From assembly GCA_944376975.1 (NCBI GenBank), contig CALWEE010000268.1:1-17928 (forward strand): a DNA stretch of 17,928 nt, in the 5' to 3' direction. Source of the DNA: an uncultured Lachnospiraceae bacterium (GTDB lineage Bacteria; Bacillota; Clostridia; Lachnospirales; Lachnospiraceae). Made by a program: the position numbers and the translations under genes. Shown here one piece after another: positions 1,982 to 17,928 of this stretch. Numbering within the stretch: the first letter of the stretch is position 1; each line of letters starts with the position of its first letter. The notes under the pieces are model-generated. The model was not told the origin of the DNA, searched no databases, and worked only from the letters and a program-made list of their open reading frames with translations.

Positions 1982-2010
1982 ATTTTATAATAATTTTTTT
2001 GAGATATCAA
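1982..2010 (-). promoter_or_regulatory. dnaA promoter (sigma-A type)
   Basis: On the minus strand TTGATA (2010-2005) and TAAAAT (1987-1982) are separated by 17 bases, a good housekeeping promoter about 45 bases upstream of the dnaA GTG. Two exact TGTGGATAA boxes (2020-2028 and 2032-2040) sit just upstream of the -35, placed for DnaA to control its own synthesis. A 12-bp palindrome TATGATATCATA lies between the promoter and the gene. A second, weaker -10 (TATAAT) nearer the gene would leave almost no leader. Confidence 0.65.
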
Positions 2011-2019
2011 CAATCAAAA

Positions 2020-2269: not shown

Positions 2270-2295
2270 ATTCACTGAAAAAGCAAAGGTTTCAC

Positions 2296-2324
2296 TTGAC
2301 GATAAACCGGTGAATGAATATAAT
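2296..2324 (+). promoter_or_regulatory. Promoter of the rpmH-rnpA operon
   Basis: TTGACG (2296-2301) and a perfect TATAAT (2319-2324) are 17 bases apart, a near-consensus sigma-A promoter 50 bases before the rpmH ATG. It follows directly after the last DnaA box (2261-2269), so DnaA bound at the origin could influence it. It is the only strong promoter seen ahead of the rpmH to jag run. Confidence 0.85.
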
Positions 2325-2373
2325 AGAATAGATATTTTATCTAGTTACGCAGATGACAGGGAGGTGTATCCGA

Positions 2374-2508
2374 ATGAAAATGACATTTCAGCCGAAAAAA
2401 CGGCAGAGAAGCAAAGTTCATGGTTTCAGAAAAAGAATGAGTACTTCTAATGGCAGAAAAGTATTAGCAGCAAGAAGAGCTAAAGGAAGAAATAAATTGA
2501 CAGCTTAG
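2374..2508 (+). CDS. rpmH: Large ribosomal subunit protein bL34
   Basis: A 44-codon gene encodes a very basic protein beginning [20 protein letters not shown] and ending with [12 protein letters not shown]. The core matches bL34 (TFQPKKRxRxKVHGFRxRM, then GRxVLxxRRxKGR), a small protein bound to 23S rRNA. It is of normal length. The ribosome site AGGGAGG (2358-2364) sits nine bases before ATG 2374. A second in-frame ATG two codons later (2380) gives the more usual MTFQPKK start, but its spacing to the ribosome site is worse. It is the first gene of the rightward operon, followed by a hairpin that probably reduces read-through into rnpA. Confidence 0.97.
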
Positions 2509-2534
2509 GCCGCATATATGTGGCCTTTTTCTTT
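2508..2534 (+). terminator. Attenuator-like hairpin between rpmH and rnpA
   Basis: GGCCGCAT (2508-2515) pairs with ATGTGGCC (2518-2525), with one G-U pair and a tight loop. It is followed by TTTTTCTTT (2526-2534). The stem begins at the last base of the rpmH stop codon, so a ribosome finishing rpmH would hinder the hairpin. Partial termination here would give much more L34 than RnpA, which matches cellular need. Confidence 0.7.
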
Positions 2535-2572
2535 AGGAGAAGGTATACCAAGCGGAAAGGTGCCTGGTTGAT

Positions 2573-2932
2573 ATGCGGTTTTCGGAATCATTGAAAAAGA
2601 AAGAACAATTTAAAAACGTTTATGAATATGGCGTTTCTTACGCCGACCGGTTCATTGTGATGTATATACTGGAAAATCACCTGGACAGGAACCGGGTCGG
2701 TATTTCTGTCAGCAAAAGAGTTGGAAACAGTGTTGTCAGACATCGTTTTACGCGGCTTGTCAGGGAAAATTATCGTTTGAATGAGGGATCTTACAAAAAA
2801 GGATACGACCTGGTCATCATCGGTCGTATACCGGCGTCAAAAGCCGACTTCTATCGCGTGGGAAGATCCATGGAAAAACTGGCAAAGCTGCATGGTATAT
2901 TGGAGACGGAGGATAAAGCCGCGGATATCTGA
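2573..2932 (+). CDS. rnpA: Ribonuclease P protein component
   Basis: RnpA is the protein cofactor of RNase P; it binds the catalytic RNA and the pre-tRNA 5' leader. The 119-residue basic protein starts MRFSESLKKKEQFKNVYEYG, the common opening of the family. It has the central stretch GISVSKRVGNSVVRHRFTR (43-61). This is the family's RNR motif, but the usual RNR/KR residues read RHRFTR here (56-61). The ATG at 2573 has a distant ribosome site (GGAAAGG, about 12 bases upstream), in keeping with low expression relative to rpmH. It sits at its standard place between rpmH and yidD. Confidence 0.95.
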   Translation: MRFSESLKKKEQFKNVYEYGVSYADRFIVMYILENHLDRNRVGISVSKRVGNSVVRHRFTRLVRENYRLNEGSYKKGYDLVIIGRIPASKADFYRVGRSMEKLAKLHGILETEDKAADI

Positions 2933-2980
2933 CCGGCGGCGCATATCCTGAATGGATACAAGGATCTGAGATGGTGTAAG

Positions 2981-3190
2981 ATGAAAAAATTTTTAATCGG
3001 ATGTATCCGTTTTTACAGAAAGTATATTTCGCCGTATAAAAGCCCTTGCTGCATCTATATTCCCACCTGTTCGGAATACGCGCTTGAGGCATTGGAAAAG
3101 TATGGAGCCCTGAAAGGCAGTTATCTGGCGATAAGGCGGATACTGCGATGTCATCCTTTTCACAAAGGGGGATATGACCCGGTTCCATAA
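2981..3190 (+). CDS. yidD: Membrane protein insertion efficiency factor YidD
   Basis: This 69-residue protein of the YidD family is thought to assist YidC and Sec-dependent insertion at the inner face of the membrane. It shows the full family pattern: RFYRKYISP (10-18), the cysteine-rich [12 protein letters not shown] (23-34), and [14 protein letters not shown] at the C terminus (56-69). The N-terminal amphipathic helix is the likely membrane contact. It lies 48 bases after rnpA and 20 bases before yidC, the usual order. The ribosome site is weak (AGATGG, about 8 bases before the ATG), so the gene may partly depend on translation of its neighbours. Confidence 0.95.
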
Positions 3191-3210
3191 GTTAAGGAGG
3201 AAACAAAACA

Positions 3211-4482
3211 TTGAATGCGCTTGTTCTTACAAAAGTTGGAGGTATCTTAGGACCCTTTGCCTTCGTATTGGGTCTCATCATGAATTACATCTTTGAATTC
3301 CTGAATTTTGTAGGGATACCGAATGTTGGACTGACCATTATCCTGTTTACGTTGGTCGTCAATCTGCTTCTTCTGCCTTTGACGATCAAACAGCAGCGAT
3401 TTACCCGGATGTCTTCGCTGATCAATCCGGAGATACAAAAGATACAGAGAAAATATAAAGGAAAGACAGACACGGCGTCTGTCAACCGCATGCAGGCCGA
3501 AACACAGGCCGTGTACGCGAAATATGGATCAAGCCCGACGGCAGGCTGCCTGCCCATGCTGATCCAGCTGCCGATCCTGTTCGCCCTGTACCGGGTCATT
3601 TACAATATCCCCGCGTATGTGGACGTTATCGGCGATCTGTACCGGACGATAGCTGAGCCGATCCAGGCGACAGCCGGCGGCGCGGATATCATGAGCCAGC
3701 TTATGACCGATCTGAGCATCCGTGTGGGAAGTTTTGACTTTAATAACATGGACAAGATCGTCGACGCGCTCAACTTTGTAAAATCCACCGGATGGGATAC
3801 GCTCGTTCAGGCGTTTGCCTCCAATCCGGATGTGGGTACGGCAGTGACCGCCGTAAAAGACACGATCATCCATATGAACCAGCTCCCCGGCGGACTGAAC
3901 ATCATCGACGCGCCGGTACAGTTTGGGGCCGGGGTCGCCGGATTTTTCCCGGGTATCATCATTCCCGTCCTTGCCGGCGTGACCCAGTATATCAGTACGA
4001 GGGTCATCCAGCCGAAGCAGAAGGAATCTGAGGCGGAAGAAAATTCCATGATGGCGTCCATGCGCATGATGAACGTGACCATGCCTCTGATCTCCGTATT
4101 TTTCTGTCTGACGCTGCCGTCCGGTATCGGCGTATACTGGATCGCCAGCTCCGTATTCCGTACATTGAGCGTGATCGTGGCCAACCGGTATTTTGACAGC
4201 AAAGACCTGGATCTTCTTATAGAGGAGAATAAAAAGATCGCCGCTAAAAAGGCCGAAAGACGGGGCGGCAAACCGACTTTATCCGAGCGGATGATGGGAG
4301 CCAGCGCGGCTGCCCAGGCACAGCAGGAAAATGAAAAACAGAAATCTCTCAGCGAGATCGCGAAAGCCAATACGAAAAAGAACTATAAACCGAGGGATTA
4401 TCAGGCATCGGACAAGCCTGTCGACACCAGCAGTATTGCTTCCATTGCCCACATGCTTGACCGGAAAGATAAACAAGATTAG
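3211..4482 (+). CDS. yidC: Membrane protein insertase YidC/Oxa1
   Basis: YidC inserts and folds membrane proteins alone or with SecYEG. The 423-residue protein starts at TTG 3211, chosen because a strong AAGGAGG (3194-3200) lies ten bases upstream; the nearby ATG at 3215 is out of frame. Hydrophobic segments lie at about 13-35, 37-57, 112-132, 238-262 and 288-322. The cytoplasmic charged hairpin between the second and third segments (about 60-110) includes KQQRFTRM and NPEIQKIQRKYKGK. A roughly 100-residue external region (134-236) is longer than in Bacilli. The tail is basic and polar. There is no lipobox cysteine, so unlike Bacillus SpoIIIJ it is not a lipoprotein. The position of the conserved groove arginine before PLT is Asn51. 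Confidence 0.95.
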   Translation: MNALVLTKVGGILGPFAFVLGLIMNYIFEFLNFVGIPNVGLTIILFTLVVNLLLLPLTIKQQRFTRMSSLINPEIQKIQRKYKGKTDTASVNRMQAETQAVYAKYGSSPTAGCLPMLIQLPILFALYRVIYNIPAYVDVIGDLYRTIAEPIQATAGGADIMSQLMTDLSIRVGSFDFNNMDKIVDALNFVKSTGWDTLVQAFASNPDVGTAVTAVKDTIIHMNQLPGGLNIIDAPVQFGAGVAGFFPGIIIPVLAGVTQYISTRVIQPKQKESEAEENSMMASMRMMNVTMPLISVFFCLTLPSGIGVYWIASSVFRTLSVIVANRYFDSKDLDLLIEENKKIAAKKAERRGGKPTLSERMMGASAAAQAQQENEKQKSLSEIAKANTKKNYKPRDYQASDKPVDTSSIASIAHMLDRKDKQD

Positions 4483-4510
4483 TGCGTTGATATGATGGAG
4501 GATGAAAAGT

Positions 4511-5182
4511 ATGGATTATATCGAAGTATCAGCAAAGACCGTTGATGACGCGATAACGGAAGCACTTATCAGACTTGGAACAACAAGCGATAAGATCGAG
4601 TATGAAGTCATTGAAAAAGGCAGCACCGGATTTCTGGGGCTTATAGGAAAACAGAACGCGGTCATAAAAGTTCGTAAAAAAAGCAACATTGTTGACGATA
4701 CATACGAATTTTTAAACAAGCTGTTTGACGCCATGGATCTGGAAGTTACATCCACGATCGATTATAACGAAGAAGACAAAAATATGACCATCAACATGGA
4801 AGGACCTGAGATGGGCATCCTCATCGGTAAGCGCGGACAGACGCTGGATTCCCTCCAGTATCTGATCAGCCTGGTCGTCAATAAGGAAAGCGATTCGTAT
4901 ATCAAGATCAAACTGGATACGGAAAATTACAGAGAAAGAAGAAAAGCGACCCTTGAGAATCTGGCGCGCAACCTGGCCTATAAGGTAAAACGGACACGTC
5001 GTCCGGTCACATTGGAACCGATGAATCCTTATGAACGCCGGGTCATCCATTCGGCGCTCCAGGGCGACAGATATGTGGAGACGCACAGCGAGGGTGACGA
5101 ACCGTACCGCAAAGTGGTCATTACCTTAAAAAAACGGGAAAATAACAGAGACTACAGATCCAGACGGAATGTGGAAGAATAA
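4511..5182 (+). CDS. jag: KH/R3H RNA-binding protein Jag (KhpB)
   Basis: Jag/KhpB is a small-RNA and mRNA-binding protein linked to cell elongation and division, and is almost always next to yidC. The product of 223 residues has a Jag-N domain (about 1-52, with GSTGFLGLIGKQNAVIKV), a KH domain (about 78-135) with the loop GKRG (106-109), and an R3H domain (about 140-208, with RRVIH at 176-180). I place the start at ATG 4511, nine bases after GGAGG (4497-4501). An in-frame ATG at 4502 touches that ribosome site and would add only MKS. It follows yidC by 28 bases and is followed by a hairpin that may end the transcript. Confidence 0.94.
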   Translation: MDYIEVSAKTVDDAITEALIRLGTTSDKIEYEVIEKGSTGFLGLIGKQNAVIKVRKKSNIVDDTYEFLNKLFDAMDLEVTSTIDYNEEDKNMTINMEGPEMGILIGKRGQTLDSLQYLISLVVNKESDSYIKIKLDTENYRERRKATLENLARNLAYKVKRTRRPVTLEPMNPYERRVIHSALQGDRYVETHSEGDEPYRKVVITLKKRENNRDYRSRRNVEE

Positions 5183-5192
5183 GGATACAAAG

Positions 5193-5232
5193 TTACCCCC
5201 TTTTTTACGTATGTAAAGATGGGGGTAATTTT
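5193..5232 (+). terminator. Hairpin between jag and mnmE
   Basis: TTACCCCC (5193-5200) pairs with GGGGGTAA (5221-5228). The enclosed sequence can continue the stem (TTTTTAC with GTAAAGA, one G-U pair, one mismatch at the junction) to a four-base loop GTAT. Four T follow (5229-5232). The stem is long and stable but the T-run is short, so this may be a partial terminator or an mRNA-stabilising element rather than a full stop before mnmE. Confidence 0.55.
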
Positions 5233-5257
5233 AGGATAGAAAGGGGTTTTCCATACC

Positions 5258-6634
5258 ATGGAAATGGATACCATTGCCGCTGTTTCCACCGGGATGACCC
5301 ATTCCGGTATAGGGAAGATAAGGATCAGCGGGGACGAGGCGATAAGGATCGCCGATAAGATCTACCGAAGTCCTTCAGGAAAGAAAAAGCTTGCCGACGC
5401 GCCAAGCCATACGATCCACTACGGCCATATCTTCGATGGCGATCAGGTGATCGACGAAGTGCTGGTCCTTGTCATGAAAGCTCCGAAAACCTATACCGCG
5501 GAAGACGTGGTGGAGATCGACTGTCACGGCGGCATCGTGGTCATGAATAAAATACTGGAAACGGTGATCCGTTACGGGGCAAGACCGGCGGAACCCGGGG
5601 AATTTACGAAACGGGCGTTTTTAAACGGACGGATCGACCTTTCCCAGGCGGAAGCGGTCATGGATATCATCCGGTCAAAAAATGAATACGCCCTGGACAG
5701 TTCGCTCAGGCAGCTTAAAGGGGAACTGAAGGAAAAGATACAGGACATAAGAAAAAGCATCATTGAAAGCGTGGCTTTCATAGAGGCTTCGCTGGACGAT
5801 CCGGAACATATATCCATGGACGGACAGGATGAGATCTTCCGCGAAAAAGTGGACAGGCACATCGCGGAGCTGGAAAAACTCCTGGATACGGCGGACAGCG
5901 GAAGGCTGATCAAAGAAGGCATCAAAACGGCCATCGTCGGAAAACCCAACGCCGGGAAGTCTTCTTTGTTGAACATGCTTTCCGGAGAAGAAAGGGCCAT
6001 TGTCACGGACGTGGCCGGGACAACGAGGGACGTGCTGGAAGAAACGGTGAACATACACGGCATATCGCTGAACATCATGGATACCGCCGGGATCAGGGAT
6101 ACGCAGGACGTGGTGGAACGTATCGGCGTGGACCGGTCAAAAGACGCGATCCGTCAGGCGGATCTGGTCATCTACGTGATCGACGGCGCCGCGCCTTTTG
6201 ATGAAAATGACCGGGCCATCATGGATATGATACGGGATAAAAAGACGATCATCCTTTTGAACAAATCGGATCTTTCCCAGGCAATGGAAAAAGAGGAACT
6301 GGAAAAAGAACTGGATCGTCCCCTGATCGCCGTATCGGCGAAATTCGGTGACGGCCTGGACGAACTGGAAGACCGGATAAAAGACATGTTCTTCAATGGC
6401 CAGATCGATCTTAACGATCAGATCTATATCACGAACACGCGGCATAAAAAGGCGATCATGGACGCTCTTGACAGCCTGAAGCTGGTGAAGGAAAGCCTGG
6501 ACGCGGGCATGCCGGAAGACTTTTATTCCATCGACTTTATGAACGCCTATACGTCCCTTGGAAAGATCATAGGGGAATCGCTGGGCGAAGACCTGATCGA
6601 CACCATATTCAGCGAATTCTGCATGGGCAAATAG
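5258..6634 (+). CDS. mnmE: tRNA uridine-5-carboxymethylaminomethyl modification GTPase MnmE
   Basis: MnmE, with MnmG, installs the carboxymethylaminomethyl group at wobble uridine 34 of certain tRNAs, using GTP and a folate one-carbon donor. The 458 residues match the family length. The N-terminal folate-binding domain begins DTIAAVST (4-11). The inserted G domain has G1 GKPNAGKS (228-235), G2 TTRD (255-258), G3 DTAG (275-278) and G4 NKSD (335-338). The C terminus is FCMGK, holding the conserved Cys of the CxGK tail. ATG 5258 follows AAGGGG by 11 bases; an alternative ATG two codons on would fit the family start MDTIAA equally well. The next gene, mnmG, begins 10 bases after its stop. Confidence 0.97.
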
Positions 6635-6644
6635 GAGGAACGAT

Positions 6645-8558
6645 ATGGCATACCAATACGAAGATTATGATGTTGCCGTCATCGGCGCGGGGCACGCGGG
6701 ATGTGAAGCCGCCCTCTCCTGCGCCAGGCTTGGACTGAAGACGATCATGTTTACCGTGAGCATTGAAAGTATCGCCCTTATGCCCTGCAATCCCAATATC
6801 GGCGGAAGCTCAAAAGGGCATCTGGTGCGTGAGATCGACGCGCTCGGCGGCCAGATGGGCAAGACCATCGACGCCACGTTCATCCAGTCCAAAATGCTGA
6901 ACAGATCAAAAGGACCCGCGGTCCATTCCCTGAGAGCCCAGGCGGATAAACACGATTATACGGACCATATGCGCCGCGTGGTGGAAAATCAGGAAAACCT
7001 GACGGTCAAGCAGGCGGAGATCGTGGATTTTACAACCGAAGAAAAAGACGGGAAAAAGAGGATTACCGGCGTGGTGACCCATACGGGAGGTATATACCCG
7101 TGTAAAGCGGCCATACTGGCCACAGGCGTGTATCTGAAAGCCCGATGCCTGTGCGGCGAATCGATCACTTATACCGGTCCCAACGGCCTCCAGGCGGCCA
7201 ACGCCCTTTCGGAAGCGCTGAAAAGGTTGGGCATACGTCTGGTCCGGTTCAAGACCGGCACACCGGCCCGGATCGACCGGCGGACCATTGATTTTTCAAA
7301 GATGGAAGAACAGTTCGGCGATGAACGTATCGTACCCTTTTCCTTTACAACGGATCCGGAGTCGATACAAAAGGAACAGGTATCCTGCTGGCTGACCTAC
7401 ACCAACGAAAAGACCCATCAGATCATCCGGGACAACCTGGACCGGTCGCCCCTGTACGCGGGCGTCATTGAAGGCGTCGGCCCCCGCTACTGCCCTTCCA
7501 TCGAGGACAAAGTGGTGAAGTTCGCCGATAAATCCCGGCATCAGGTATTTATCGAACCGGAAGGAAATTATACGAATGAGATGTATGTGGGCGGTATGTC
7601 CAGTTCCCTTCCGGAAGACGTCCAGTTCCGTATGTACCGCTCCGTTCCCGGACTGGAACACGCCCAGATCGTAAGGCATGCCTATGCCATCGAATACGAC
7701 TGCATACCGGCGGTCCAGTTAAAGGCGTCGCTGGAATTTAAAGCGATCGACGGGCTTTTTTCCGGCGGCCAGTTCAACGGAAGTTCAGGATATGAGGAAG
7801 CGGCGGCCCAGGGACTGATGGCGGGCATCAACGCGGCCATGAAGATCAAAGGGCGGGATCCCGTCATCCTGAAACGTTCGGAAGCGTATATCGGCGTGCT
7901 CATTGACGACCTGATCACGAAAGAAACCCATGAACCCTACCGGATGATGACCTCGCGGGCGGAATACAGGCTGATCTTAAGGCAGGACAACGCCGATCTG
8001 CGGCTGACGCCCATCGGCCATGAGGTGGGCCTTATTGATGATGAACGATATGAAAAACTGCTCGAAAAGGAAAAGATGATCCGGGAAGAAATACGGCGGC
8101 TGGAACATACGACCATCGGAGGAAGCAAAGAGGTCCAGGATTTTCTTGAAAAACATGGAAGCACGCCGCTTAAGACGGCGGTATCCATGGCTGAACTCAT
8201 ACGCAGGCCGGAACTGTCTTATGAGACGCTCCTTCCCCTGGATGCCGGGCGGAAAAAGCTTCCGGAGGACGTGATCGTCCAGGTCGATATCAACATCAAA
8301 TATCAGGGATACATTGACAGGCAGATGCGCCAGGTGGAACAATTCCGGAAAATGGAAGACAAAAAGATACCGGAAGATCTGGATTACTCCGATATAAAGA
8401 GCCTGAGGACGGAGGCCTGCCAGAAGCTGACAGCCATACGCCCCCATTCCATAGGACAGGCGTCCCGTATATCCGGCGTCTCTCCCGCCGATATATCGGT
8501 CCTTATGATTTATCTGGAACAGTATAAACGGAAAAAACATATGAAGGAGACGGTATGA
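6645..8558 (+). CDS. mnmG: tRNA uridine-5-carboxymethylaminomethyl modification enzyme MnmG (GidA)
   Basis: MnmG is the FAD- and NADH-dependent partner of MnmE in wobble-uridine modification. The 637-residue protein has the N-terminal dinucleotide fold [15 protein letters not shown] (10-24), the conserved MPCNPNIGG segment (about 47-55), the [16 protein letters not shown] region, and the [21 protein letters not shown] block that closes the FAD site. The C-terminal helical domain for MnmE and tRNA contact ends [20 protein letters not shown] plus a short basic tail. AGGAGG lies directly before ATG 6645. Its stop codon overlaps the rsmG start (ATGA at 8555-8558), so the two are translationally coupled. 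Confidence 0.98.
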
Positions 8559-9274
8559 AAAGAACAGAAAAGCTGGCCAGAGGGGCCCTGGAACTGGGGA
8601 TCTGTCTGAGTGAAAGCCAGCTTGAACAGTTTGAACAGTATTATGAAATGCTGATAGAGACCAATAAGGTGATGAACCTTACCGGTATTACCCAGTGGGA
8701 AGACGTGGTCGACAAACATTTTATCGACAGTCTCTGCGTCGCGCGGGCAGTCCGGTTCAAAGAAGGCGACAAGGTCATCGACATGGGGACCGGGGCCGGT
8801 TTTCCCGGGATCCCGTTAAAGATCGCTTTTCCGGATATACAGATCACTTTAATGGATTCGCTCAATAAACGGATCGGATTCCTGAAAAATGTCCTGTTGG
8901 AACTGGGTCTTTTAAAGGCGGAGGCGGTCCACGCAAGGGCGGAAGATCTGGCAAGGGATCCAGGATACAGGGAACAGTATGACTACTGCTTTTCCCGGGC
9001 TGTGGCCAATATGTCCACCCTTTCCGAATACTGCCTGCCCTTTGTCAAAGTGGGCGGAAAGTTTATTCCATATAAGTCCGGGAATATAGACGAAGAACTG
9101 ACTAATAGTCAAAATGCCATAACCCGACTGGGCGGTAAAATATCCCGTGTGGATCAGTATACGCTGATGGGGACAGACGCCGGCCGTTCCCTGATCATTG
9201 TGGATAAGATCCGTCCTACAGGAAAGGCTTATCCGAGGAAGGCAGGAAAACCGTCCAGGGAACCTTTATCGTAA
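8555..9274 (+). CDS. rsmG: 16S rRNA (guanine527-N7)-methyltransferase RsmG (GidB)
   Basis: RsmG methylates N7 of G527 in the 530 loop of 16S rRNA, using S-adenosylmethionine. The 239-residue protein carries NLTGI (41-45), KHFIDSL (54-60), and the SAM-binding glycine loop [15 protein letters not shown] (76-90). Later come the FSRAVANM segment and the basic C terminus typical of the family. The ATG overlaps the mnmG stop codon and has an AAGGAG ribosome site inside the end of mnmG. Loss of this gene in other bacteria causes low-level streptomycin resistance. It closes the canonical mnmE-mnmG-rsmG unit; the next gene is 23 bases downstream and probably co-transcribed. Confidence 0.97.
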
Positions 9275-9297
9275 AAATCAGGAAAGAAGGAGATCAT

Positions 9298-9765
9298 ATG
9301 GTCCAGGGAATATGTTTCATGGGGATAAACGATGAACGCTACCCGCTTTGCCGGAAAATACGCCAGGACGTTTTTGTGACGGAACAGAAGGTGGATCCGG
9401 ATCTGGAGTTTGACGGAATGGATGACGCGGCGGCTCACGCGCTCATATACGACGAAAAAGGCGAACCGGCGGCCACAGGCCGGATGCTTGGAATGGGCGA
9501 AGGCGTTTTTCGGATAGGCCGGTTAGCTGTCCAAAAGTCATTTAGAAATATGGGATATGGACAGTTGGTCATGTTGATGCTGATGGATAAGGCCCGCCAA
9601 TGCGGCGGGAAAAAGATCTGTATCGACGCCCAGGTATACGCCAGAGGATTTTACGAAAAACTGGGATTTAAGGCGGATGGCGACGTGTTCATGGAGGCGG
9701 GGATCGAACACATCCGCATGAACCGCGATCTGGATCAGGTCCGCTCCTGCCCCTGCGGAAAATAA
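9298..9765 (+). CDS. GNAT-family N-acetyltransferase (YjcF/ElaA-like)
   Basis: The 155-residue protein is a single GNAT domain. The N-terminal RQDVFVTEQKV (22-32) followed by an acidic run EFDGMDDAAAHAL is typical of the YjcF/ElaA branch. The acetyl-CoA pyrophosphate loop is RNMGYG (83-88), preceded by strand IGRLAVQK (73-80). The FYEKLGF helix-strand (118-124) and closing IEHIRM (136-141) complete the fold. The acceptor substrate is unknown. AAGGAG stands seven bases before ATG 9298. The last residues SCPCGK add an unusual Cys pair. It is probably the last gene of the rsmG transcript, facing a leftward gene across a hairpin. Confidence 0.88.
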   Translation: MVQGICFMGINDERYPLCRKIRQDVFVTEQKVDPDLEFDGMDDAAAHALIYDEKGEPAATGRMLGMGEGVFRIGRLAVQKSFRNMGYGQLVMLMLMDKARQCGGKKICIDAQVYARGFYEKLGFKADGDVFMEAGIEHIRMNRDLDQVRSCPCGK

Positions 9766-9794
9766 AAGCAGCCTGCCCTGCAAAAGGACAGGCT
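9758..9794 (-). terminator. Terminator of the leftward alpha/beta hydrolase gene
   Basis: AGCCTG (9770-9775) plus CCT pairs with AGG plus CAGGCT (9786-9794), with one C-A mismatch and a five-base loop. Read leftward, the stem starts six bases after the hydrolase stop codon and is followed by GCTTTTATTTT, a proper U-run. Read rightward there is no T-run, so termination of the acetyltransferase transcript here would be less efficient. Confidence 0.7.
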
Positions 9795-9800
9795 GTCAGG

Positions 9801-10772
9801 TCACGGATCCAGATCGTCTTCGGAAGCCAGGTAAATGGAGCAGATCTCCATAAACGCGTCCGGTCGTTCAAGATGGGGATAATGGCCGCAGTCCGGAAGG
9901 ATCTCCGCTTCAATGGCGGGATTGATGGAAAGATAATGGTCCATGTTCTCTTCTGTCTCCGGTTCGGTCTCGCCAAAGATAAGGTACATGCTCTTATCCA
10001 GACGCCCTACCATTCGGAACATGTTGATGTTGGTAAAATGGCTGCGTTCGCTGGCGTAAAAGTAACGGACCGCCGGACCGCCGTGATGGGCGGCGCCATA
10101 GCCGGCCTGCGTCAGTCTTTCCACGACCTGTTCGTCGTCAAATACCTGATGTTCCCGCTCTTTTTTGATAAAATATCTGGAAAAGATCACGTTATATATG
10201 AAAGTTCCTATGATCGGACATTCGATAAGGTACTTTAAAGCCTTGTGGTTGGCTTTCGGATACTTGCGCAGCGTCTGCTCGGAAGGCGGATCGACCATGA
10301 CGATCCGGTGATACAGTTCCGATTCCGCCGTACAGCCCATAACGGCAATGCTCGCGGAAACGCCGCTTGTCATGACGTCGGTGGGCCTGCCGATCACATT
10401 GCGGATAAAATCGTTGACAAGCTGGACGTAGACATAGTTGGTATACGTCATTTTTGGTTTATCGGAACGTCCGCAGCCGATCAGGTCAATCGTATAGACG
10501 GTATGATTTTTCGCGAGGCGCGCCAGTATGCCTTCCCATTCGTTGGAAGAAGCCGTGCTCTTCAGGTCATGGATCAAAAGAATGGGTGAACCTTCGCCGG
10601 TTTTTGTATAGACTATATTGCCAAAGCGCCAGGGATAGATCTGATCCCGGTCTGTACTCAGATGGTCTTTCAGGCTGGACCGGACAAATATGAGCTTGTT
10701 GATGCACCATGTAGCGAACAGCGCGGAGGCCGAAACAGCAGCTATTTTAAATAAGGGTTTGCTTTTTTTCAA
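9801..10772 (-). CDS. Membrane-anchored alpha/beta-fold hydrolase
   Basis: The product of about 323 residues has an N-terminal hydrophobic helix (about 6-29) with a basic start, no signal-peptidase site that I can see, and then an alpha/beta hydrolase domain. The nucleophile elbow is SGVSASIAV, with Ser139 in the small-x-Ser-x-small pattern; the catalytic His is His297 in DCGHYPHLERP. The acid is probably Glu268 or Glu270 (FGETEPE) in place of the common Asp. The oxyanion loop reads LLIHDL where most relatives have HG. I prefer the TTG start at 10772, since AGGTGAG is well spaced from it; GTG 10781 would touch the ribosome site and add three residues. The substrate is unknown; it could be an esterase or lipase-like enzyme on the cytoplasmic or outer membrane face. 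It lies head-on to the replication fork. Confidence 0.85.
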   Translation of the reverse strand: MKKSKPLFKIAAVSASALFATWCINKLIFVRSSLKDHLSTDRDQIYPWRFGNIVYTKTGEGSPILLIHDLKSTASSNEWEGILARLAKNHTVYTIDLIGCGRSDKPKMTYTNYVYVQLVNDFIRNVIGRPTDVMTSGVSASIAVMGCTAESELYHRIVMVDPPSEQTLRKYPKANHKALKYLIECPIIGTFIYNVIFSRYFIKKEREHQVFDDEQVVERLTQAGYGAAHHGGPAVRYFYASERSHFTNINMFRMVGRLDKSMYLIFGETEPETEENMDHYLSINPAIEAEILPDCGHYPHLERPDAFMEICSIYLASEDDLDP

Positions 10773-10781
10773 TCGTCTCAC

Positions 10782-10960
10782 CTCATAGTTTATATTATCA
10801 TATACGATTAATTTTTTATAGCTATTTTTTTTATTTTGTTGTAAAATATACCTTATTGAGCAGGGCTTTGAAAGCCGGAAAACAGGCTTAAAAGGATTAT
10901 TAGATTACATAAATACTTCACATAATATGTTTACATATTCTATTTTAGGAGACAAAGTGT
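10782..10960. other. Divergent hydrolase/argS intergenic region
   Basis: These 180 AT-rich bases separate two divergent genes. No promoter is convincing: a possible argS pair is TTAGAT (10900-10905) and TAATAT (10923-10928) at 17 bases, and a possible leftward -10 is GATAAT (10799-10794). AGCC (10873-10876) can pair with GGCT either upstream (10864-10867) or downstream (10885-10888). No T-box signature (AGGGTGGNACCGCG) is present ahead of argS. Confidence 0.4.
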
Positions 10961-12646
10961 ATGAAAAATAAAGTGGCAGAATTGATATCCGCTCAGGTGG
11001 AAAGCCTGAGCAAAGAAGAGATCTTATCTCTTATTGAGATCCCTCCGAAAACAGAAATGGGTGATTTTGCCTTTCCGTGTTTTAAATTGGCGAAAACATA
11101 TCGGAAAGCGCCCCAGGCCATCGCGGCGGAACTGAAGGAAAAGATGGAAAACGCGTCTTTCCTCAGTAAAGTTGAATGTTTAGGACCTTATTTGAATTTT
11201 TATGTAAACAAACAGGAAATGGCCCGTCAGATCGTTGAAAATTACAAAAACTGTAAAAATTATGGCGGAGCCGAGGAGAAAAACAGTAAAACGATCTGTA
11301 TCGACTACTCCTCTCCCAACGTGGCGAAGAATTTCCACGTGGGCCACTTAAGGACAACGATCATCGGTAATTCTCTTAACAATATTTACAGAAAATCCGG
11401 TTACGATGTTGTCCGGATCAATCACCTGGGCGACTGGGGAACCCAGTTTGGAAAGCTTATCGTGGCATATAAACGCTGGGGAAGCCAGCAGGCTGTTGAG
11501 AATGAAGGTATTTCCGAACTGATGCGTATTTATGTCAAGTTCCATGAAGAAGCGGAAAAAGACGACAGCTTAAACGATGAAGCCAGATCCTGGTTTACGA
11601 AAATGGAACATGGCGACGAAGAAGCGTTGAGCATCTGGCGTTGGTTCAGAGAGATCAGCTTAAAAGAATTTATGAGCGTCTACAAAATGCTGGATATAGA
11701 TTTCGACTCTTACGATGGCGAAAGCTTTTACAACGATAAAATGGCTGCTGTCATCGAAGAATTGAAAGAAAAAGGGCTCATTAAGGTCAGCGAAGGCGCC
11801 CAGATCATCGATCTGGAGGAATACGGCATGCCGCCCTGTCTGATCACCAAGAAAGACGGAAGTTCTCTTTACGCGACCCGTGATATCACCGCTGCTTTAT
11901 ATAGAAAGAACACCTATCATTTTGATAAATGTCTTTATGTGACCGGGTTGGAGCAGAAACTTCATTTTGCCCAGTGGTTTAAGGTCATTGAACTGATGGG
12001 TTATGATTGGGCGAAAGATTTGTATCATGTACCTTATGGCCTTGTAAGCCTGAAAGGCGGAAAACTTTCCACAAGAAAAGGCAATATCATCTATGCTGAG
12101 GATATCCTGAACGAGTCGATCCAGAAAACACGAAGCATTATTGAAGAGAAAAATCCAGATATCAGCGACAAAGAAGAAGTTTCAAGAGAAGTCGGTATTG
12201 GAGCGATCATCTTCAACGATCTTTATAATCAGAGGATAAAAGACGTGGTATTCGATTGGGATAAAATATTGAACTTTGACGGCGAAACAGGTCCTTATGT
12301 TCAGTATACCTACGCAAGGGCAGCCAGTGTCCTGAGGAAGATTGGCGATAAAACAGATGAGATCGACTATAATGTACTGACAGACGATACATCTATGGCG
12401 TTGATCAAAGAAATCGAACGTTATCCCCAGGCTGTAAAAGACGCCGCTGATCGCATGGAACCTTATATCATTTCCAGATACGCGGTCGCGCTTGCTCAGG
12501 CATTTAACAAATTTTATCATGATTGTCAGATCAATGTACTGGAAGACAATATACGAAATACCCGGGCAAACATTGTGGAGATCGTAAAGAATATCATCAA
12601 AGACGCTCTGTCACTGCTTGGTATCAAATGTCCGGAACAAATGTAA
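10961..12646 (+). CDS. argS: Arginine-tRNA ligase
   Basis: This class I aminoacyl-tRNA synthetase charges tRNA-Arg and, unlike most class I enzymes, needs bound tRNA to activate the amino acid. The 561-residue protein has the N-terminal Add1 domain for the tRNA D-loop (about 1-100, with TEMGDFAFPCFKLAK), the HIGH motif as HVGH (126-129, in SSPNVAKNFHVGHLRT), and the KMSKS-equivalent KLSTRKG near residue 367. A helical anticodon domain ends in the typical LLGIKCPEQM. AGGAG (10947-10951) lies nine bases before the ATG. It stands alone between a divergent hydrolase and parA, a location I do not regard as the standard neighbour of parA. Its probable terminator contains a parS site. Confidence 0.97.
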   Translation: MKNKVAELISAQVESLSKEEILSLIEIPPKTEMGDFAFPCFKLAKTYRKAPQAIAAELKEKMENASFLSKVECLGPYLNFYVNKQEMARQIVENYKNCKNYGGAEEKNSKTICIDYSSPNVAKNFHVGHLRTTIIGNSLNNIYRKSGYDVVRINHLGDWGTQFGKLIVAYKRWGSQQAVENEGISELMRIYVKFHEEAEKDDSLNDEARSWFTKMEHGDEEALSIWRWFREISLKEFMSVYKMLDIDFDSYDGESFYNDKMAAVIEELKEKGLIKVSEGAQIIDLEEYGMPPCLITKKDGSSLYATRDITAALYRKNTYHFDKCLYVTGLEQKLHFAQWFKVIELMGYDWAKDLYHVPYGLVSLKGGKLSTRKGNIIYAEDILNESIQKTRSIIEEKNPDISDKEEVSREVGIGAIIFNDLYNQRIKDVVFDWDKILNFDGETGPYVQYTYARAASVLRKIGDKTDEIDYNVLTDDTSMALIKEIERYPQAVKDAADRMEPYIISRYAVALAQAFNKFYHDCQINVLEDNIRNTRANIVEIVKNIIKDALSLLGIKCPEQM

Positions 12647-12648
12647 GG

Positions 12649-12683
12649 AAAAAGGATGTTTCACGTGAAACATCCTTTTTTTT
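12649..12683 (+). terminator. Probable argS terminator formed by the parS-centred inverted repeat
   Basis: A perfect inverted repeat runs from 12649 to 12680 (16 bases per arm, centre between 12664 and 12665). As RNA it folds with GGATGTTTC (12654-12662) pairing to GAAACATCC (12667-12675) across the loop ACGT, with A-U pairs extending below. Eight T (12676-12683) follow directly, two bases after the argS stop codon region. That is the form of a Rho-independent terminator, and its core is the parS sequence. Confidence 0.7.
12657..12672. promoter_or_regulatory. parS: parS centromere site 1
   Basis: TGTTTCACGTGAAACA is an exact match to the 16-bp parS palindrome bound by ParB/Spo0J. ParB loads here, spreads as a CTP-dependent clamp and recruits SMC condensin. 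It lies 11 bases after the argS stop and about 270 bases before parA, within 11 kb of the origin as expected. Confidence 0.97.
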
Positions 12684-12837
12684 ATGCAAAATACGTATGG
12701 ATGACACAATACCAATAGGAACAATGTTTTGTTCATATTATACGCAAAACTATAAAATGACCAAAGTTCAGAAAAGAAGATCAAACGTTTTGTTTGTCAA
12801 AAACAAGGATAAGGTAGTTTTTTACAAAAATAGTAAA

Positions 12838-12853
12838 TGTTTCACGTGAAACA
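12838..12853. promoter_or_regulatory. parS: parS centromere site 2
   Basis: A second exact TGTTTCACGTGAAACA lies 181 bases from the first. The palindrome extends to 26 bp (12833-12858), but no T-run follows, so here only the ParB role is evident. It ends about 57 bases before the parA -10, near enough for ParB bound and spread here to repress parAB. The roughly 165 bases between the two sites are AT-rich and hold nothing I can name. Confidence 0.97.
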
Positions 12854-12909
12854 TTTACGTCATTTCATAGAATTTTTATATTATTGCTATAGAAGAACAG
12901 ATGATAAAA

Positions 12910-12918
12910 TGTTATAAT
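12910..12918 (+). promoter_or_regulatory. parAB promoter (extended -10)
   Basis: TGTTATAAT combines a perfect TATAAT (12913-12918) with the TGN extension (12910-12912), about 25 bases before the parA ATG. There is no good -35 at 17 bases, which extended -10 promoters tolerate. A ribosome site (GAGGAG, 12934-12939) follows. Confidence 0.55.
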
Positions 12919-12943
12919 AATCTCTGCAGGAAAGAGGAGAGTT

Positions 12944-13720
12944 ATGGGAAGAATTATTGCAATAGCGAATCAAAAAGGCGGCGTTGGGAAAACGACAACG
13001 GCGATCAATCTGTCTTCTTCTTTGGCCGAACTTCAGCAAAGGGTTCTGACAATCGATATGGATCCGCAGGGGAATACAACGAGCGGATTGGGCATCAATA
13101 AGGATGAAGCTGAAAATACAGTGTATGAACTGTTGCTGGAAGAAAATATTGAAGCGGCCGAATGTATTCAGCCTTCTGTCATGGATGGATTGGACGTTAT
13201 AGCATCGAATATAAATCTGTCCGGCGCGGAAGTTGAACTGATCAATGTGGAAAATAAAGAATATTTACTGAGGGACAAGATCGAACAGATCAAAGAAAAC
13301 TATGATTTTATCATTATTGACTGCCCTCCCTCGTTAAATATACTGACGATCAATGCTTTGACGACGGCAAATACGGTCATTGTACCGATCCAGTGCGAAT
13401 ATTATGCTTTGGAAGGCCTGACTCAGCTGATACATACCATCGATCTGATCCAGGAAAGGCTGAACGAGTCGTTGGAGATAGAAGGCGTTGTATTTACCAT
13501 GTTTGATGGACGTACAAATCTTTCGCTTCAAGTCGTGGAAAACGTGAAAGAAAATCTGGATCGAAATATCTATAAAACGATCATTCCAAGAAATGTGCGT
13601 CTTGCGGAGGCGCCAAGCTATGGTATGCCGATAAATATGTATGATAATCGTTCTGCCGGGGCGGAAGCTTATCGTCTTCTGGCGGAAGAAGTGATACACA
13701 GAGGGGAAGGTGAAAAATAG
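12944..13720 (+). CDS. parA: Chromosome-partitioning ATPase ParA (Soj)
   Basis: ParA/Soj is a deviant-Walker ATPase that dimerises on DNA with ATP. It is discharged by ParB, and through DnaA it can also influence replication initiation. The 258-residue protein begins with the deviant Walker A KGGVGKTT (11-18) with its signature lysine, then has DMDPQGNTTSGLG (38-50) and Walker B IIIDCPPSLNILT (123-135). It lacks an N-terminal helix-turn-helix, which places it with the chromosomal type rather than type Ia plasmid proteins. GAGGAG precedes ATG 12944. Its TAG stop overlaps the parB GTG by one base (13720), giving translational coupling. Confidence 0.97.
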   Translation: MGRIIAIANQKGGVGKTTTAINLSSSLAELQQRVLTIDMDPQGNTTSGLGINKDEAENTVYELLLEENIEAAECIQPSVMDGLDVIASNINLSGAEVELINVENKEYLLRDKIEQIKENYDFIIIDCPPSLNILTINALTTANTVIVPIQCEYYALEGLTQLIHTIDLIQERLNESLEIEGVVFTMFDGRTNLSLQVVENVKENLDRNIYKTIIPRNVRLAEAPSYGMPINMYDNRSAGAEAYRLLAEEVIHRGEGEK

Positions 13721-14652
13721 TGGCGGCACGTCGAGGCGGATTGGGAAGAGGCATAGACGCGCTCATCCCATCATCCACAGATAAAAAAACGGTAAAGAAA
13801 GCCGTAAAAGAGCCGGTTAAAGTGGAAAAAAAGAAACCGGAAGAAGAACATAAAGAGATATTGATCAAACTTAACGAGATCGAGCCAAACAGAAACCAGC
13901 CAAGAAAGAATTTTGACCAAGATTCACTTCAGGAATTGGCGGAATCGATAAAACATCACGGGATGATCCAGCCGATCATCGTAAAGAAACAGGCGGATTA
14001 TTACGAGATCGTGGCAGGCGAAAGGCGGTGGAGAGCCGCGCGCATCGCGGGATTGAAAGAAGTTCCGGTCATCATAAAGGATTATTCCGATGTGGAGACG
14101 GTAGAGATCGCGGTTATTGAAAATCTTCAAAGAGAGGATCTGAACCCTATTGAAGAAGCAATGGCTTTTGAGACGTTGATCAAAGAGTATGGCCTGAAGC
14201 AGGATGAAGTGGCGGAAAGGGTATCCAAAAGCCGGGCGGCGATAACCAATTCTTTGCGGTTGTTAAAGCTGGATAAAAGAGTCCGGCAGATGGTCATCGA
14301 TGAGATGATCAGCAGCGGTCATGCCAGAGCTTTGCTGGCGATCGAGAACGGTGAACAGCAATACAACGCGGCCATTCACGTATTCGACAATAAATTAAGC
14401 GTGCGGGAGACGGAAAAACTGGTCAAAGATCTTCTGACGCCGAAGAAAAAAGTGGAGAAACCGAAAGTTGACTATTCCCAGATGGAACTGATCTATCACC
14501 AGTTGGAAGAACGGATGAAATCTGTCGTGGGAACAAAAGTGGCGATCAAGAGTAATAATTACAAAAAAGGCAAGATCGAGATCGAATATTATTCCAATGA
14601 CGAATTGGAAAGGATCATCGATCTGATCGAGTCGGTAAGGCAGGTAGGATAA
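13720..14652 (+). CDS. parB: Chromosome-partitioning protein ParB (Spo0J)
   Basis: ParB binds parS, hydrolyses CTP and slides as a clamp; it stimulates ParA and loads SMC. The 310-residue protein opens with MAARRGGLGRGIDALIPSS, whose basic stretch is the ParA-activating peptide. A charged linker (about 22-46) follows. The CTP-binding N domain contains NRNQPRKNFD (57-66) and the GERRWRA box (100-106). The ENLQREDLNPIEEA segment (134-147) leads into the helix-turn-helix (about 158-182). A C-terminal dimerisation domain ends the protein. GTG 13720 has a good AGGGGAAGG ribosome site inside parA. Two exact target sites lie just upstream of its operon. Confidence 0.97.
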   Translation: MAARRGGLGRGIDALIPSSTDKKTVKKAVKEPVKVEKKKPEEEHKEILIKLNEIEPNRNQPRKNFDQDSLQELAESIKHHGMIQPIIVKKQADYYEIVAGERRWRAARIAGLKEVPVIIKDYSDVETVEIAVIENLQREDLNPIEEAMAFETLIKEYGLKQDEVAERVSKSRAAITNSLRLLKLDKRVRQMVIDEMISSGHARALLAIENGEQQYNAAIHVFDNKLSVRETEKLVKDLLTPKKKVEKPKVDYSQMELIYHQLEERMKSVVGTKVAIKSNNYKKGKIEIEYYSNDELERIIDLIESVRQVG

Positions 14653-14654
14653 AT

Positions 14655-15173
14655 ATGGATAGCAGGATACTGGCAAGCTTGAAATTTGATCCGGGAATTT
14701 TGATCATAGGGATGTTTGTCCTCATCATCATATTATTTGCGCTGTTGATCATCCTGAATCGCAAGCAAAACGCGCTGAACAAAAAGTATAAAGCGTTCAT
14801 GAGAGGCGGAAGGAACGCGAAATCCCTGGATGAATCCATACAAAATCATCTGGATGAGATCGAAACGCTGAAGAAAAACAGCAATACGTTGAATAACCGG
14901 CTTGTCCGTCTGGAAAAGAGCATGGCAAGATCTTATCAGAAGATAGGGATCGTCAAGTATGACGCGTTTAAAGAGATGGGCGGAAAGATGAGTTTCGCCT
15001 ATGCCATGCTGAACGATACAAACGATGGATTCATCATCAATTCCATACATAGCAAGGATGGCTGTTACAGCTATATCAAAGAGATCATCAAAGGTGAATC
15101 GTATATCGCCCTCGGAGATGAGGAGGCGGAAGCCCTGGAAATGGCCATGCAGATGGGGATCACAAAAGAATGA
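14655..15173 (+). CDS. DUF4446 family membrane protein
   Basis: The 172-residue protein has one transmembrane helix (about 14-35), a basic juxtamembrane segment, a likely coiled coil (about 58-95), and a compact C-terminal domain (97-165). That domain contains GIVKYDAFKEMGGKMSFAYAML and the FIINSIHSKDGCYSYIK segment characteristic of DUF4446. The function is unknown. It starts two bases after the parB stop, with AGGTAGGA overlapping the end of parB, so it belongs to the parAB operon. Members of this family are commonly found directly after parB in Clostridia. That position suggests a role around origin segregation or its link to the membrane, which is inference only. Confidence 0.9.
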   Translation: MDSRILASLKFDPGILIIGMFVLIIILFALLIILNRKQNALNKKYKAFMRGGRNAKSLDESIQNHLDEIETLKKNSNTLNNRLVRLEKSMARSYQKIGIVKYDAFKEMGGKMSFAYAMLNDTNDGFIINSIHSKDGCYSYIKEIIKGESYIALGDEEAEALEMAMQMGITKE

Positions 15174-15177
15174 GAAG

Positions 15178-15219
15178 AAGCTCTTAGTAAGGGAAAGAAC
15201 TTACTAAGAGCTTTTCTTT
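15178..15219. terminator. Bidirectional terminator between DUF4446 gene and AdhE-like gene
   Basis: Fourteen perfect base pairs (15178-15191 with 15200-15213, centred on CTCTTAGTAAG and CTTACTAAGAG) enclose an eight-base loop. TTTTCTTT follows rightward (15212-15219); leftward the flank reads as a C/T-rich run with fewer U. The AdhE-like stop codon (15218-15220) lies within the rightward T-run, so the two convergent genes share this element with almost no spare sequence. Confidence 0.88.
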
Positions 15220-17704
15220 ATTTCGCAAGGACAGCGTAAAAAGAATCATACAGCGCGCCCAGTTCGTCAAGAGACGGTGAACGGGGATTGGAACGGGCGC
15301 AGCCGTGGGAAAAAACCTTTTGGCATATTTCCGCTTTTTTCGCGCCGTATTCCCTGGAATTCAGGCCATATTCCCGGAAAGACCCGGGAATGGCCAGACG
15401 GGATCGCAGGTTCACGAAAGCATCCCGCAGGATGGACGCAGCCAACGGGGAGCGGTCGCGTTTTGCGTTTTTTTCTTCTGGAATATCCAATCCGAGGCAG
15501 CGGCAGGCGCGGATGAGTTTTTCGTTTATGTTGTAATGATCTTCCGGATAATCCGGAGAGATGCGGCTGGGTACGAGTACGCCGTTGTACATCAATATAA
15601 ACGGGAAAATAACGGCGTCGCACAGGCTTTTGTCAATGGAAAATGATTCACTGATCGTTTCTCCAAAAGCGCGGGTCAGGCCCGCGAACGCGTTGCCGAA
15701 AGCCATACCTGCCAGCAAAGAAGCGTTTTGGATATGGCTGCGGTTAAATGACAGACGCATGGCCTGCAAGGCGAAAGCATCGGAAAAATCGGACGCCAAA
15801 AGAGACATATACGCTTCCGAAGCCTGCACAAAAAGATGGATCCATTGGTAAGAAAGATCCGGGCAGGTCAGTTTATCCTGTATATCCGGATCGGATATAA
15901 GGATATCCGGCGTCAGATCATACCCCATGACCGGATAATGGATCCCGGTCGCCTGATCGGTGGACCTGAAAAAAGACGTTGTTTCCGTGCCGGAATCAAT
16001 AAAGGTGGGAATGGCGACAAATATCGGTTTATCACAGGACAAAGCGGTCTTCTGGGAAAATGACTGAACGTCCATATATTTTACGGACAGATCGTCAAAA
16101 TCTTTGTCGGGGAAACACCATTTGAGCAGGATGCCTTTGGCGATGTCGATGGTATACTGGTTTCCGAAAGCGATCACCATATCCGGTCGCAGAGCGGCCA
16201 TTTTTTCACGTCCCCGCTCGATCCTGTCATTTGCGCATATACTTCCGTCAATATGAAAGATATCATAACGAAGCGTGTTCTGTTCCTGTTTCCATCCGCG
16301 CAGGATAAGATCGGCATCCTGATCTGTAACGACCAGCACTTTCTGGACGTTTTCAAAGGAAGATAATTCACAGATCGACCCTTTGTTGAAAAAGATCTTG
16401 TCCGGGATCTTAAATACACGTGTATATTCCGGCCTGGAGGAAATATATTTCAGGCGGACCAGATCGGATGTATATGAGAGAAAATGGCTGTCCACCTCCG
16501 GCGGCGTATCGTTCACAAACAAATGACTTATAGTCAATTTGCTGGAAACATACTCGGATTCAGCCCGATGACATGAAAATAAGGAACAGCAGGCGCTCCC
16601 GGGGAAATCGGACAGTCCTTTTTGGCACAGTTCCAGGCCATGGTCCAGGTCTTTTGTCCTGTAAACGGCCAGGATGGGCATACGCCGCGGGATCGATAAG
16701 GGGTATTCCGGGCCAATATTCTCGGGCGTGACGCAAAGAACAGGACAGTCGGAAGAAACCTGTATTTTAGCGGCCTGGGCAAGACGGAAAGGGGGAAGGC
16801 CCGTCGCTTTTTTGTTCGGAACGCCGGCGGCCATATCATTCAGTATGGGAAGGATCTTCTGGGATTCTTCTTTATTGAGAAAACGGGCGTTGTGTTTTTC
16901 CATAAACGCGACCAGGCTGTCGTATACGCCGTTTTCCGCGAATACCGCCTGTATCCCGTTATGATCCAGGCCATAGTCACCGGCCCGGGATGAAAGGATC
17001 TTTGTGGCGGCAAGTTCCGGATCGGCTGTTTTGGAAACGATGGCCGGCACCCATTGGGAGGCGAAGATACGGCAGGGCTTTTGGGATTCTTTCATCCTGG
17101 CGCAGAAACGCGGGCTTCCGGAAGCCAGGATCGTCCGGATCGCTTTGTGCCGGATCAGTTCTTTCAGGCGGTTTTCCAGCGATATGGGCGCCCAGCTGAT
17201 CATATCGGCGGGAAGGCCGGACGATACGGCCGCTTCTTTTAAGACCCGGGCGATCTCGATGGACGTCTGTAAGGCTTTGGGGTGGAAACTCAGAAAAAGC
17301 GGGCTGCGGGTACGGACGGCCATATAGATCATATATAAAATGGACAGGGCCGGATCGTCCGCGCAGGTCAATCCTAATATCATACCGATGGGTTCGCGTC
17401 GCGCGCCGCAAGCAAAATGACCAAAAGTCACAATAGGATCGTGAAACGGGTGGGCATCGTTTCGTATCGATCGGACCGCGAGGATATGTTTCCGCGCTTT
17501 GTCTTCATACCGTCCGGTATGGGTTTCGTCAACGCACATTTTCGTGAGCCGGTCATTTGAATCGGTAAAAGCGCGCAGCATCTGTTCGATAACGGCGTCA
17601 ACGCGACCGCTTTCCAGATACCCCAACGTTTCGGCTGTTTTATCCAGTGTTTCGGGAAGCGAAAAGCTGTCCCGGCCATATGTCATTACTCCGGTCAAGT
17701 TCAT
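15218..17704 (-). CDS. AdhE-like bifunctional aldehyde-alcohol dehydrogenase homologue, probably catalytically dead
   Basis: The 828-residue protein has AdhE architecture: an aldehyde dehydrogenase-like half (about 1-410) and an iron alcohol dehydrogenase-like half (about 425-828). Regions that align with E. coli AdhE without gaps include DATGxxYPxxxYxLTPD (about 583-600), EAYMSLLASDFSDAFALQAM (630-649) and the end SNPRSPSLDELGALYDSFY. However, the catalytic Cys (E. coli C246) aligns with His248. The metal ligands D653, H657, H723 and H737 align with His623, Gln627, Arg678 and Lys692. The GGGS nucleotide loop reads GNQY (514-517). The frame is open throughout. I infer a pseudoenzyme, perhaps a structural or regulatory partner of a true AdhE; an unrecognised new activity or early decay are alternatives. 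AGGAGGGT precedes ATG 17704, after a hairpin leader. It is encoded head-on to the fork. Confidence 0.85.
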   Translation of the reverse strand: MNLTGVMTYGRDSFSLPETLDKTAETLGYLESGRVDAVIEQMLRAFTDSNDRLTKMCVDETHTGRYEDKARKHILAVRSIRNDAHPFHDPIVTFGHFACGARREPIGMILGLTCADDPALSILYMIYMAVRTRSPLFLSFHPKALQTSIEIARVLKEAAVSSGLPADMISWAPISLENRLKELIRHKAIRTILASGSPRFCARMKESQKPCRIFASQWVPAIVSKTADPELAATKILSSRAGDYGLDHNGIQAVFAENGVYDSLVAFMEKHNARFLNKEESQKILPILNDMAAGVPNKKATGLPPFRLAQAAKIQVSSDCPVLCVTPENIGPEYPLSIPRRMPILAVYRTKDLDHGLELCQKGLSDFPGSACCSLFSCHRAESEYVSSKLTISHLFVNDTPPEVDSHFLSYTSDLVRLKYISSRPEYTRVFKIPDKIFFNKGSICELSSFENVQKVLVVTDQDADLILRGWKQEQNTLRYDIFHIDGSICANDRIERGREKMAALRPDMVIAFGNQYTIDIAKGILLKWCFPDKDFDDLSVKYMDVQSFSQKTALSCDKPIFVAIPTFIDSGTETTSFFRSTDQATGIHYPVMGYDLTPDILISDPDIQDKLTCPDLSYQWIHLFVQASEAYMSLLASDFSDAFALQAMRLSFNRSHIQNASLLAGMAFGNAFAGLTRAFGETISESFSIDKSLCDAVIFPFILMYNGVLVPSRISPDYPEDHYNINEKLIRACRCLGLDIPEEKNAKRDRSPLAASILRDAFVNLRSRLAIPGSFREYGLNSREYGAKKAEICQKVFSHGCARSNPRSPSLDELGALYDSFYAVLAK

Positions 17705-17720
17705 GGTAACCCTCCTGTTA

Positions 17721-17771
17721 TGGAAATCAGCGTGTTCCGACGTGGAACAGCGGTTTCTTTTACTATTTCCA
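17721..17771 (-). promoter_or_regulatory. Structured leader hairpin ahead of the AdhE-like gene
   Basis: Two nested inverted repeats lie just upstream of the AdhE-like ribosome site: the outer arms TGGAAAT (17721-17727) and ATTTCCA (17765-17771), and the inner arms TGTTCC (17733-17738) and GGAACA (17744-17749) around five bases. In the leftward mRNA they form a stem-loop that ends a few bases before AGGAGGG. The outer ATTTCCA arm could instead pair with TGGGAAAAT at 17778-17786. No riboswitch class is recognised. Confidence 0.5.
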
Positions 17772-17822
17772 TATAAATGGGAAAATATGCTGAAGATAGG
17801 CCGGAGCGGCGGGTATATTAAC

Positions 17823-17851
17823 TTGCAAAAAGGATATGGCTATTATATAAT
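17823..17851 (+). promoter_or_regulatory. Promoter for the gene at the right edge
   Basis: TTGCAA (17823-17828) and a perfect TATAAT (17846-17851) are 17 bases apart, about 75 bases before the ATG at 17924. The -10 lies in the 16-bp perfect palindrome GCTATTATATAATAGC (17839-17854), so it is also a potential operator, and TATAAT can be read on the minus strand as well. The divergent AdhE-like gene has no equally good promoter of its own in this gap. Confidence 0.65.
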
Positions 17852-17923
17852 AGCAGATAGCTTATCCGGAAATAAATGGTTGATTTCCAGGGTTATACCG
17901 ATCCCAAAGAGGAGGACAGATTT

Positions 17924-17928
17924 ATGAT
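17924..17928 (+). CDS. Start of a gene cut by the right edge
   Basis: Only ATG and two more bases are in the window. The call rests on the ribosome site AGAGGAGG (17908-17915), eight bases before the ATG, and the consensus-like promoter upstream. The product cannot be named. Confidence 0.5.

Follow-up and report, generated by a model that had tools for sequence, protein, structure and literature searches.

What function is left to a bifunctional alcohol dehydrogenase whose two active sites have both been replaced? The question is raised by a gene in the 17,928 nucleotides (nt) of contig CALWEE010000268.1 that were analyzed here (the window; positions 1 to 17,928, uncultured Lachnospiraceae bacterium, GenBank assembly GCA_944376975.1). 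The coding sequence (15218–17704, minus strand) runs intact from an ATG start at 17704 to a TAA stop at 15218, and encodes an 828-residue protein resembling AdhE, with an N-terminal acetylating aldehyde dehydrogenase (ALDH) and a C-terminal iron-containing alcohol dehydrogenase (Fe-ADH; ADH half) in one chain. A preliminary description of the window had proposed, without naming a strand, that a full-length AdhE homolog occupies this interval; the 828 open codons stand and lie on the minus strand, and a plus-strand reading was rejected for its many stops and lack of an open reading frame. By sequence, the protein would be a pseudoenzyme, and the reading we favor, with moderate confidence, is a full-length derivative of AdhE, stripped of both dehydrogenase chemistries but maintained as a folded, non-catalytic protein, its gene probably being reused for something besides alcohol production.

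Family assignment and active-site residues

The protein matched Pfam Aldedh (34.1 bits), Fe-ADH (56.3 bits), and ADH_Fe_C (62.7 bits), all above their cut-offs, as well as NCBIfam PRK13805 and AdhE structures in the Protein Data Bank (PDB). The top NCBIfam model was AdhE NF010378, at 400.9 bits and far under its equivalog cut-off of 951 bits, the top PDB match was Clostridium thermocellum AdhE (8uhw, E value 1e-75), and the nearest aligned full-length AdhE was ~31% identical. Compared with AdhE (NF010378; PDB 8uhw, 6ahc, 6tqh), the protein shares the order of the domains, the fold of both halves, and the ADH–ADH pocket residues, and has a linker of comparable length, whereas all catalytic and metal residues are replaced, an ALDH loop is shorter by ~36 residues, the ALDH hairpin is apparently lost, the sequence of loop 2 is eroded, and the chain is shorter (828 residues, against ~860–890). 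BdhE, an independently fused enzyme, is alike in joining ALDH to ADH, but is reported to be active (PMC12454647), and its sequence match is much weaker than that of AdhE (PDB 9ldl, E value 4e-4 versus 1e-75). In ErcA/YiaY of Pseudomonas an Fe-ADH fold is used in regulating alcohol metabolism, but these proteins have a single domain and are described as Fe-dependent dehydrogenases (PMC12997753), and the ErcA model (NCBIfam NF041833) gave 63 bits against a cut-off of 550. The AdhE-like protein had no hit in PADLOC.

The main alignment comprised 119 rows, the AdhE-like protein and 118 full-length AdhE rows (117 distinct sequences), drawn from 120 BLAST hits with frames of at least 780 codons after one non-spanning hit was dropped; a second alignment of 37 rows was made with MAFFT. 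The catalytic cysteine and the Asp/His/His/His iron ligands were kept in 118 of 118 other rows, and the AdhE-like protein keeps none of them. His248 (16961–16963, minus strand, as for all codons below) stands at the ALDH catalytic cysteine (E. coli Cys246), and the iron ligands Asp653, His657, His723, and His737 are replaced by His623 (15836–15838), Gln627 (15824–15826), Arg678 (15671–15673), and Lys692 (15629–15631), respectively. The GGGS loop for nicotinamide adenine dinucleotide (NAD) in the ADH half reads GNQY in the 119-row alignment (16154–16165; G514 kept, G515N, G516Q, S517Y), and Asp520 and Lys523 persist near it. All five replacements and the loop change, as listed in the preliminary description, were borne out in the 119-row alignment; the MAFFT alignment agreed on all residue replacements, and neither alignment placed a cysteine or Asp/His ligands elsewhere in register.

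Further losses fall in the ALDH half, at conserved residues aligned with 117, 217, 218, and 251, in conserved motifs around residues 114–121, 213–218, and 248–251, and in the deletion of ~36 residues, which the 37-row alignment places around GGIGDxYN ... GxNSVSxNV. Given 46% retention at equally conserved columns, losing the five originally named residues by chance has P ~0.05, and losing these plus the three GGGS residues has P = 0.007. A 12-residue list, all lost, gives P = 6e-4, but was composed post hoc and omits the kept G514; with G514 counted, the tally becomes 12 losses among 13 (P = 0.004).

A new active site formed by the remodeled pockets (His623, Gln627, Arg678, and Lys692; His248) is very unlikely. 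The five replaced positions are all polar or charged, and the persistence of Asp520 and Lys523 would fit such a site, but Arg and Lys at two of the four metal positions disfavor a cation, GGGS is lost, the ALDH loop is missing its ~36 residues, and no conserved replacement motif is demonstrable without orthologs. A novel metal site built on His623, as once suggested, is likewise unlikely because, of the three remaining ligand positions, two are taken by Arg and Lys. Sensing of coenzyme A or NAD, put forward at the same time, is weakened by the loss of GGGS and of the three ALDH motifs, and may still occur.

Constraint, fold, and retained surfaces

Where the other rows are at least 95% identical, the protein retains 113 of 231 columns, and 13 further columns of this kind are gapped (113 of 244). 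The ALDH half is the more eroded, with 40 of 100 conserved columns kept, against 27 of 52 plus 24 of 42 in the ADH half. Retention drops with rising family entropy, the pattern that constraint would produce, and changed positions are conservative, with hydrophobic positions remaining hydrophobic in both halves. The retention deficit is heaviest in active-site segments of the alignment, a concentration that we regard as suggestive, not strong. Segments 659–673 and 637–651 are over-retained, and the conserved block EAYMSLLASDFSDAFALQAM, which had been named earlier as a survivor, is indeed present as residues 630–649 (15758–15817, minus strand), with its Phe640 aligned to the E. coli spirosome residue F670.

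The ADH half also keeps a four-residue ADH–ADH pocket (I437, F439, F640, and M667), with F in 73 rows and Y in 45 at column 640, and M in 117 of 118 rows at column 667. I437 and F439 presumably correspond to E. coli 460 and 462, in agreement with the structural offsets. In E. coli AdhE, the pocket of the ADH–ADH spirosome contact is formed by I460, F462, F670, and I712 (PMC6778083), and loop 2 is located at the ALDH–ADH interface (PMC7080775).

An AlphaFold2 model built both domains, with a predicted local distance difference test (pLDDT) score of 79.7. Residues 88–105 and 405–418, which cover the ALDH oligomerization hairpin (E. coli 87–101) and a linker strand, had pLDDT below 50; in a canonical AdhE control model, the hairpin strands were formed at 105–128 in blocks of mean pLDDT 83–94, and residues 423–445 were largely below 50. 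The alignments, the model, column retention, and the conservative character of the changes together bear out the proposal that chemistry was lost and the fold retained.

In a FastTree phylogeny of 63 rows at less than 85% identity, the terminal branch of the AdhE-like protein measured 2.61 substitutions per site, and the next longest measured 0.35. When 400 copies were subjected to simulated random mutation, stop-free frames fell to 7% at 0.03 changes per nt and to 1.3% at 0.05. An open frame on such a branch indicates that nearly the whole of it was travelled under coding constraint, and neutral decay does not explain it. A different case is a relic in early decay, a gene whose role, catalytic or not, ended only recently and on which selection has since relaxed; we consider this unlikely. 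The very long branch fits it, as does the presence of the gene in one genome only, missing from the corresponding locus of two sister genomes and not found in the other four genomes of the genus, but 828 codons without stop or frameshift leave room for only a few percent of neutral nucleotide change, and both normal codon usage and conservative substitutions in both halves speak against it.

Distribution, partners, and proposed role

Protein searches covered 98 relatives (E value 1e-3), 5 genus genomes (1e-3), 397 family genomes (1e-50), 392 order genomes (1e-61), 391 class genomes (1e-61), and 398 phylum genomes (1e-90); the genome samples overlap, and the thresholded searches scored no more than two candidates from each genome. 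No ortholog was found in the genus, family, order, class, or phylum samples, and the best matches, including full-span ones from five genomes (G343, G314, G1025, G876, and G987), were canonical AdhE. A first pattern scan of genome contigs returned no relative, and a second, with the C-terminal half as query, had a top identity of 32% among the best 80 of 402 relatives. Viral contigs gave no match, and 602 plasmid records matched, all below 60% identity. Within the genomes sampled, the protein is an orphan.

The genome itself (1.83 Mb, 274 contigs, 91% complete) yielded no other full-length AdhE with the AdhE-like protein as query, so the normal adhE sought as a companion was not found at this completeness, and the four other genomes of the genus (two of them 99% complete) likewise yielded separate halves only. 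The genome does encode an EutE-type acetaldehyde dehydrogenase (contig C19) and a stand-alone Fe-ADH (contig C134), with cysteine and ligand motifs kept when read by eye. On contig C19 (L050), the EutE-type enzyme, with its canonical cysteine motif, lies in what by eye is an ethanolamine-utilization-like cluster.

These data bear on two proposals for a partner. An inactive subunit acting on AdhE spirosomes, by capping, templating, or tuning them as originally suggested, has the kept pocket residues in its favor, but is extremely improbable: searches of five genomes of the genus turned up no full-length AdhE, the ALDH hairpin is unformed in the model and formed in the control, and loop 2 is eroded. 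A modulator that forms an ADH-surface heterodimer with the Fe-ADH (C134), or associates with the EutE-type enzyme (C19), is a doubtful alternative. Both enzymes are present with their motifs, the ADH–ADH pocket is kept, and AdhE is reported to have the EutE and PduQ families as sister groups (PMC12454647), but no linkage or co-occurrence signal was seen, and comparable stand-alone enzymes occur in the four sister genomes, where the AdhE-like gene was not found.

Under the favored reading, that of a folded, non-catalytic AdhE derivative, both chemistries would have been lost, with active-site segments eroded preferentially and the fold and hydrophobic core constrained. The protein would form dimers through the retained ADH–ADH surface and, given the apparent loss of the ALDH hairpin, would not form AdhE-type filaments. 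It would then bind a ligand or partner, as a sensor or scaffold, in a cell where no full-length AdhE was found, the first partner candidates being the cell's own stand-alone Fe-ADH and EutE-type enzyme. The replaced residues and the constraint are read directly from the sequences, and assembly, ligand, and partner are what we infer.

Several points weigh against this reading. With no ortholog in the sampled genomes by which to gauge present selection, function may have been lost recently. Retention in the helical ADH half could be due to folding or to ordinary Fe-ADH dimerization, and the over-retained segments include 735–759 and 762–776, for which we know of no role. Segment 543–557, the fifth most under-retained among the six worst, falls within loop 2, an AdhE-specific element at the ALDH–ADH interface, so erosion extends beyond chemistry alone. 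The family sample has an effective sequence number (Neff) of only 10.8, and segment z-scores reach only ~2.8. The two halves of the model are placed unlike those of AdhE spirosome chains (root-mean-square deviation ~33 Å over 776 aligned residues). Finally, the ribosome site, said in the preliminary description to be strong and promoter-proximal, is a good Shine-Dalgarno sequence (AGGAGG, 17711–17716, minus strand, 6 nt before the ATG), but a sigma-70-like scan gave plus-strand sites only, and no same-strand promoter was recognized for the gene.

Locus, leader, and significance

The contig carries dnaA, argS, parA, parB, and DUF4446 (by Pfam; other gene names were assigned by eye), with the AdhE-like gene after DUF4446 and a two-way terminator-like hairpin between them (15176–15215). 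The order parA-parB-DUF4446 is common to this contig and two sister genomes, in which DUF4446 is followed by serS, 184 and 171 nt away, and the AdhE-like gene is absent at that position; the remaining two sister genomes had no parB match at 1e-60. A ribosome site and an ATG stand at the contig terminus, and the sole above-cut-off serS of the genome is truncated by the end of contig C38. The sister gene order and the cut serS make it likely that the AdhE-like gene was inserted between DUF4446 and serS. An assembly or binning artefact was also considered and judged unlikely, given the genes carried by the contig, the order shared with the sisters, and the cut serS. Elsewhere in the window, a minus-strand alpha/beta-hydrolase gene (9801–10781, Pfam) lies between a GNAT acetyltransferase gene and argS. 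Beyond serS and DUF3881, the two sister genomes (L048, L049) show by eye, besides more ParA/ParB-like genes, a long surface-type protein rich in repeats; none of these was seen in contig C38 of this genome.

The leader of the AdhE-like gene holds a perfect palindrome, TGTTCC-N5-GGAACA (17733–17749), and folds somewhat better than shuffles (z = −2.5); Rfam gave no match at the gathering threshold within the window. One further exact copy occurs in the genome (0.11 expected; L142, 7005–7021), where it immediately precedes the ATG of a gene for a WYL/WCX regulator that matches PADLOC WYL models; eight more sites have one mismatch. No exact copy was found in the four other genomes of the genus, and none of 29 other WYL homologs had the palindrome in the 120 nt upstream (29 loci; 122 of 295 genomes with a match). 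Since the WYL/WCX regulator is widespread, the palindrome serves only as a lead to possible regulation.

Pseudoenzymes are already known in the ALDH family. Human ALDH16A1 resembles the AdhE-like protein in having an ALDH fold without the whole catalytic triad and reported non-enzymatic roles, but it is a human ALDH, and is likened here by description only, without alignment (PMC10650815). A few text searches of the literature found no description of an inactive AdhE or of an iron-containing ADH pseudoenzyme, and excerpts of PMC6778083, PMC7080775, PMC12454647, PMC4207490, PMC12997753, and PMC10650815 describe no inactive AdhE. We offer only tentatively the fuller proposal of an undescribed AdhE pseudoenzyme, devoid of both chemistries and of the ALDH dimer contact, which would assemble through its ADH surface to sense or to scaffold in a lineage without full-length AdhE, and which a regulator might switch by way of the leader palindrome. 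If true, an AdhE dead at both sites would uncouple the structural duties of a filament-forming enzyme from its catalytic ones, and would provide a natural experiment on the surfaces that selection preserves.
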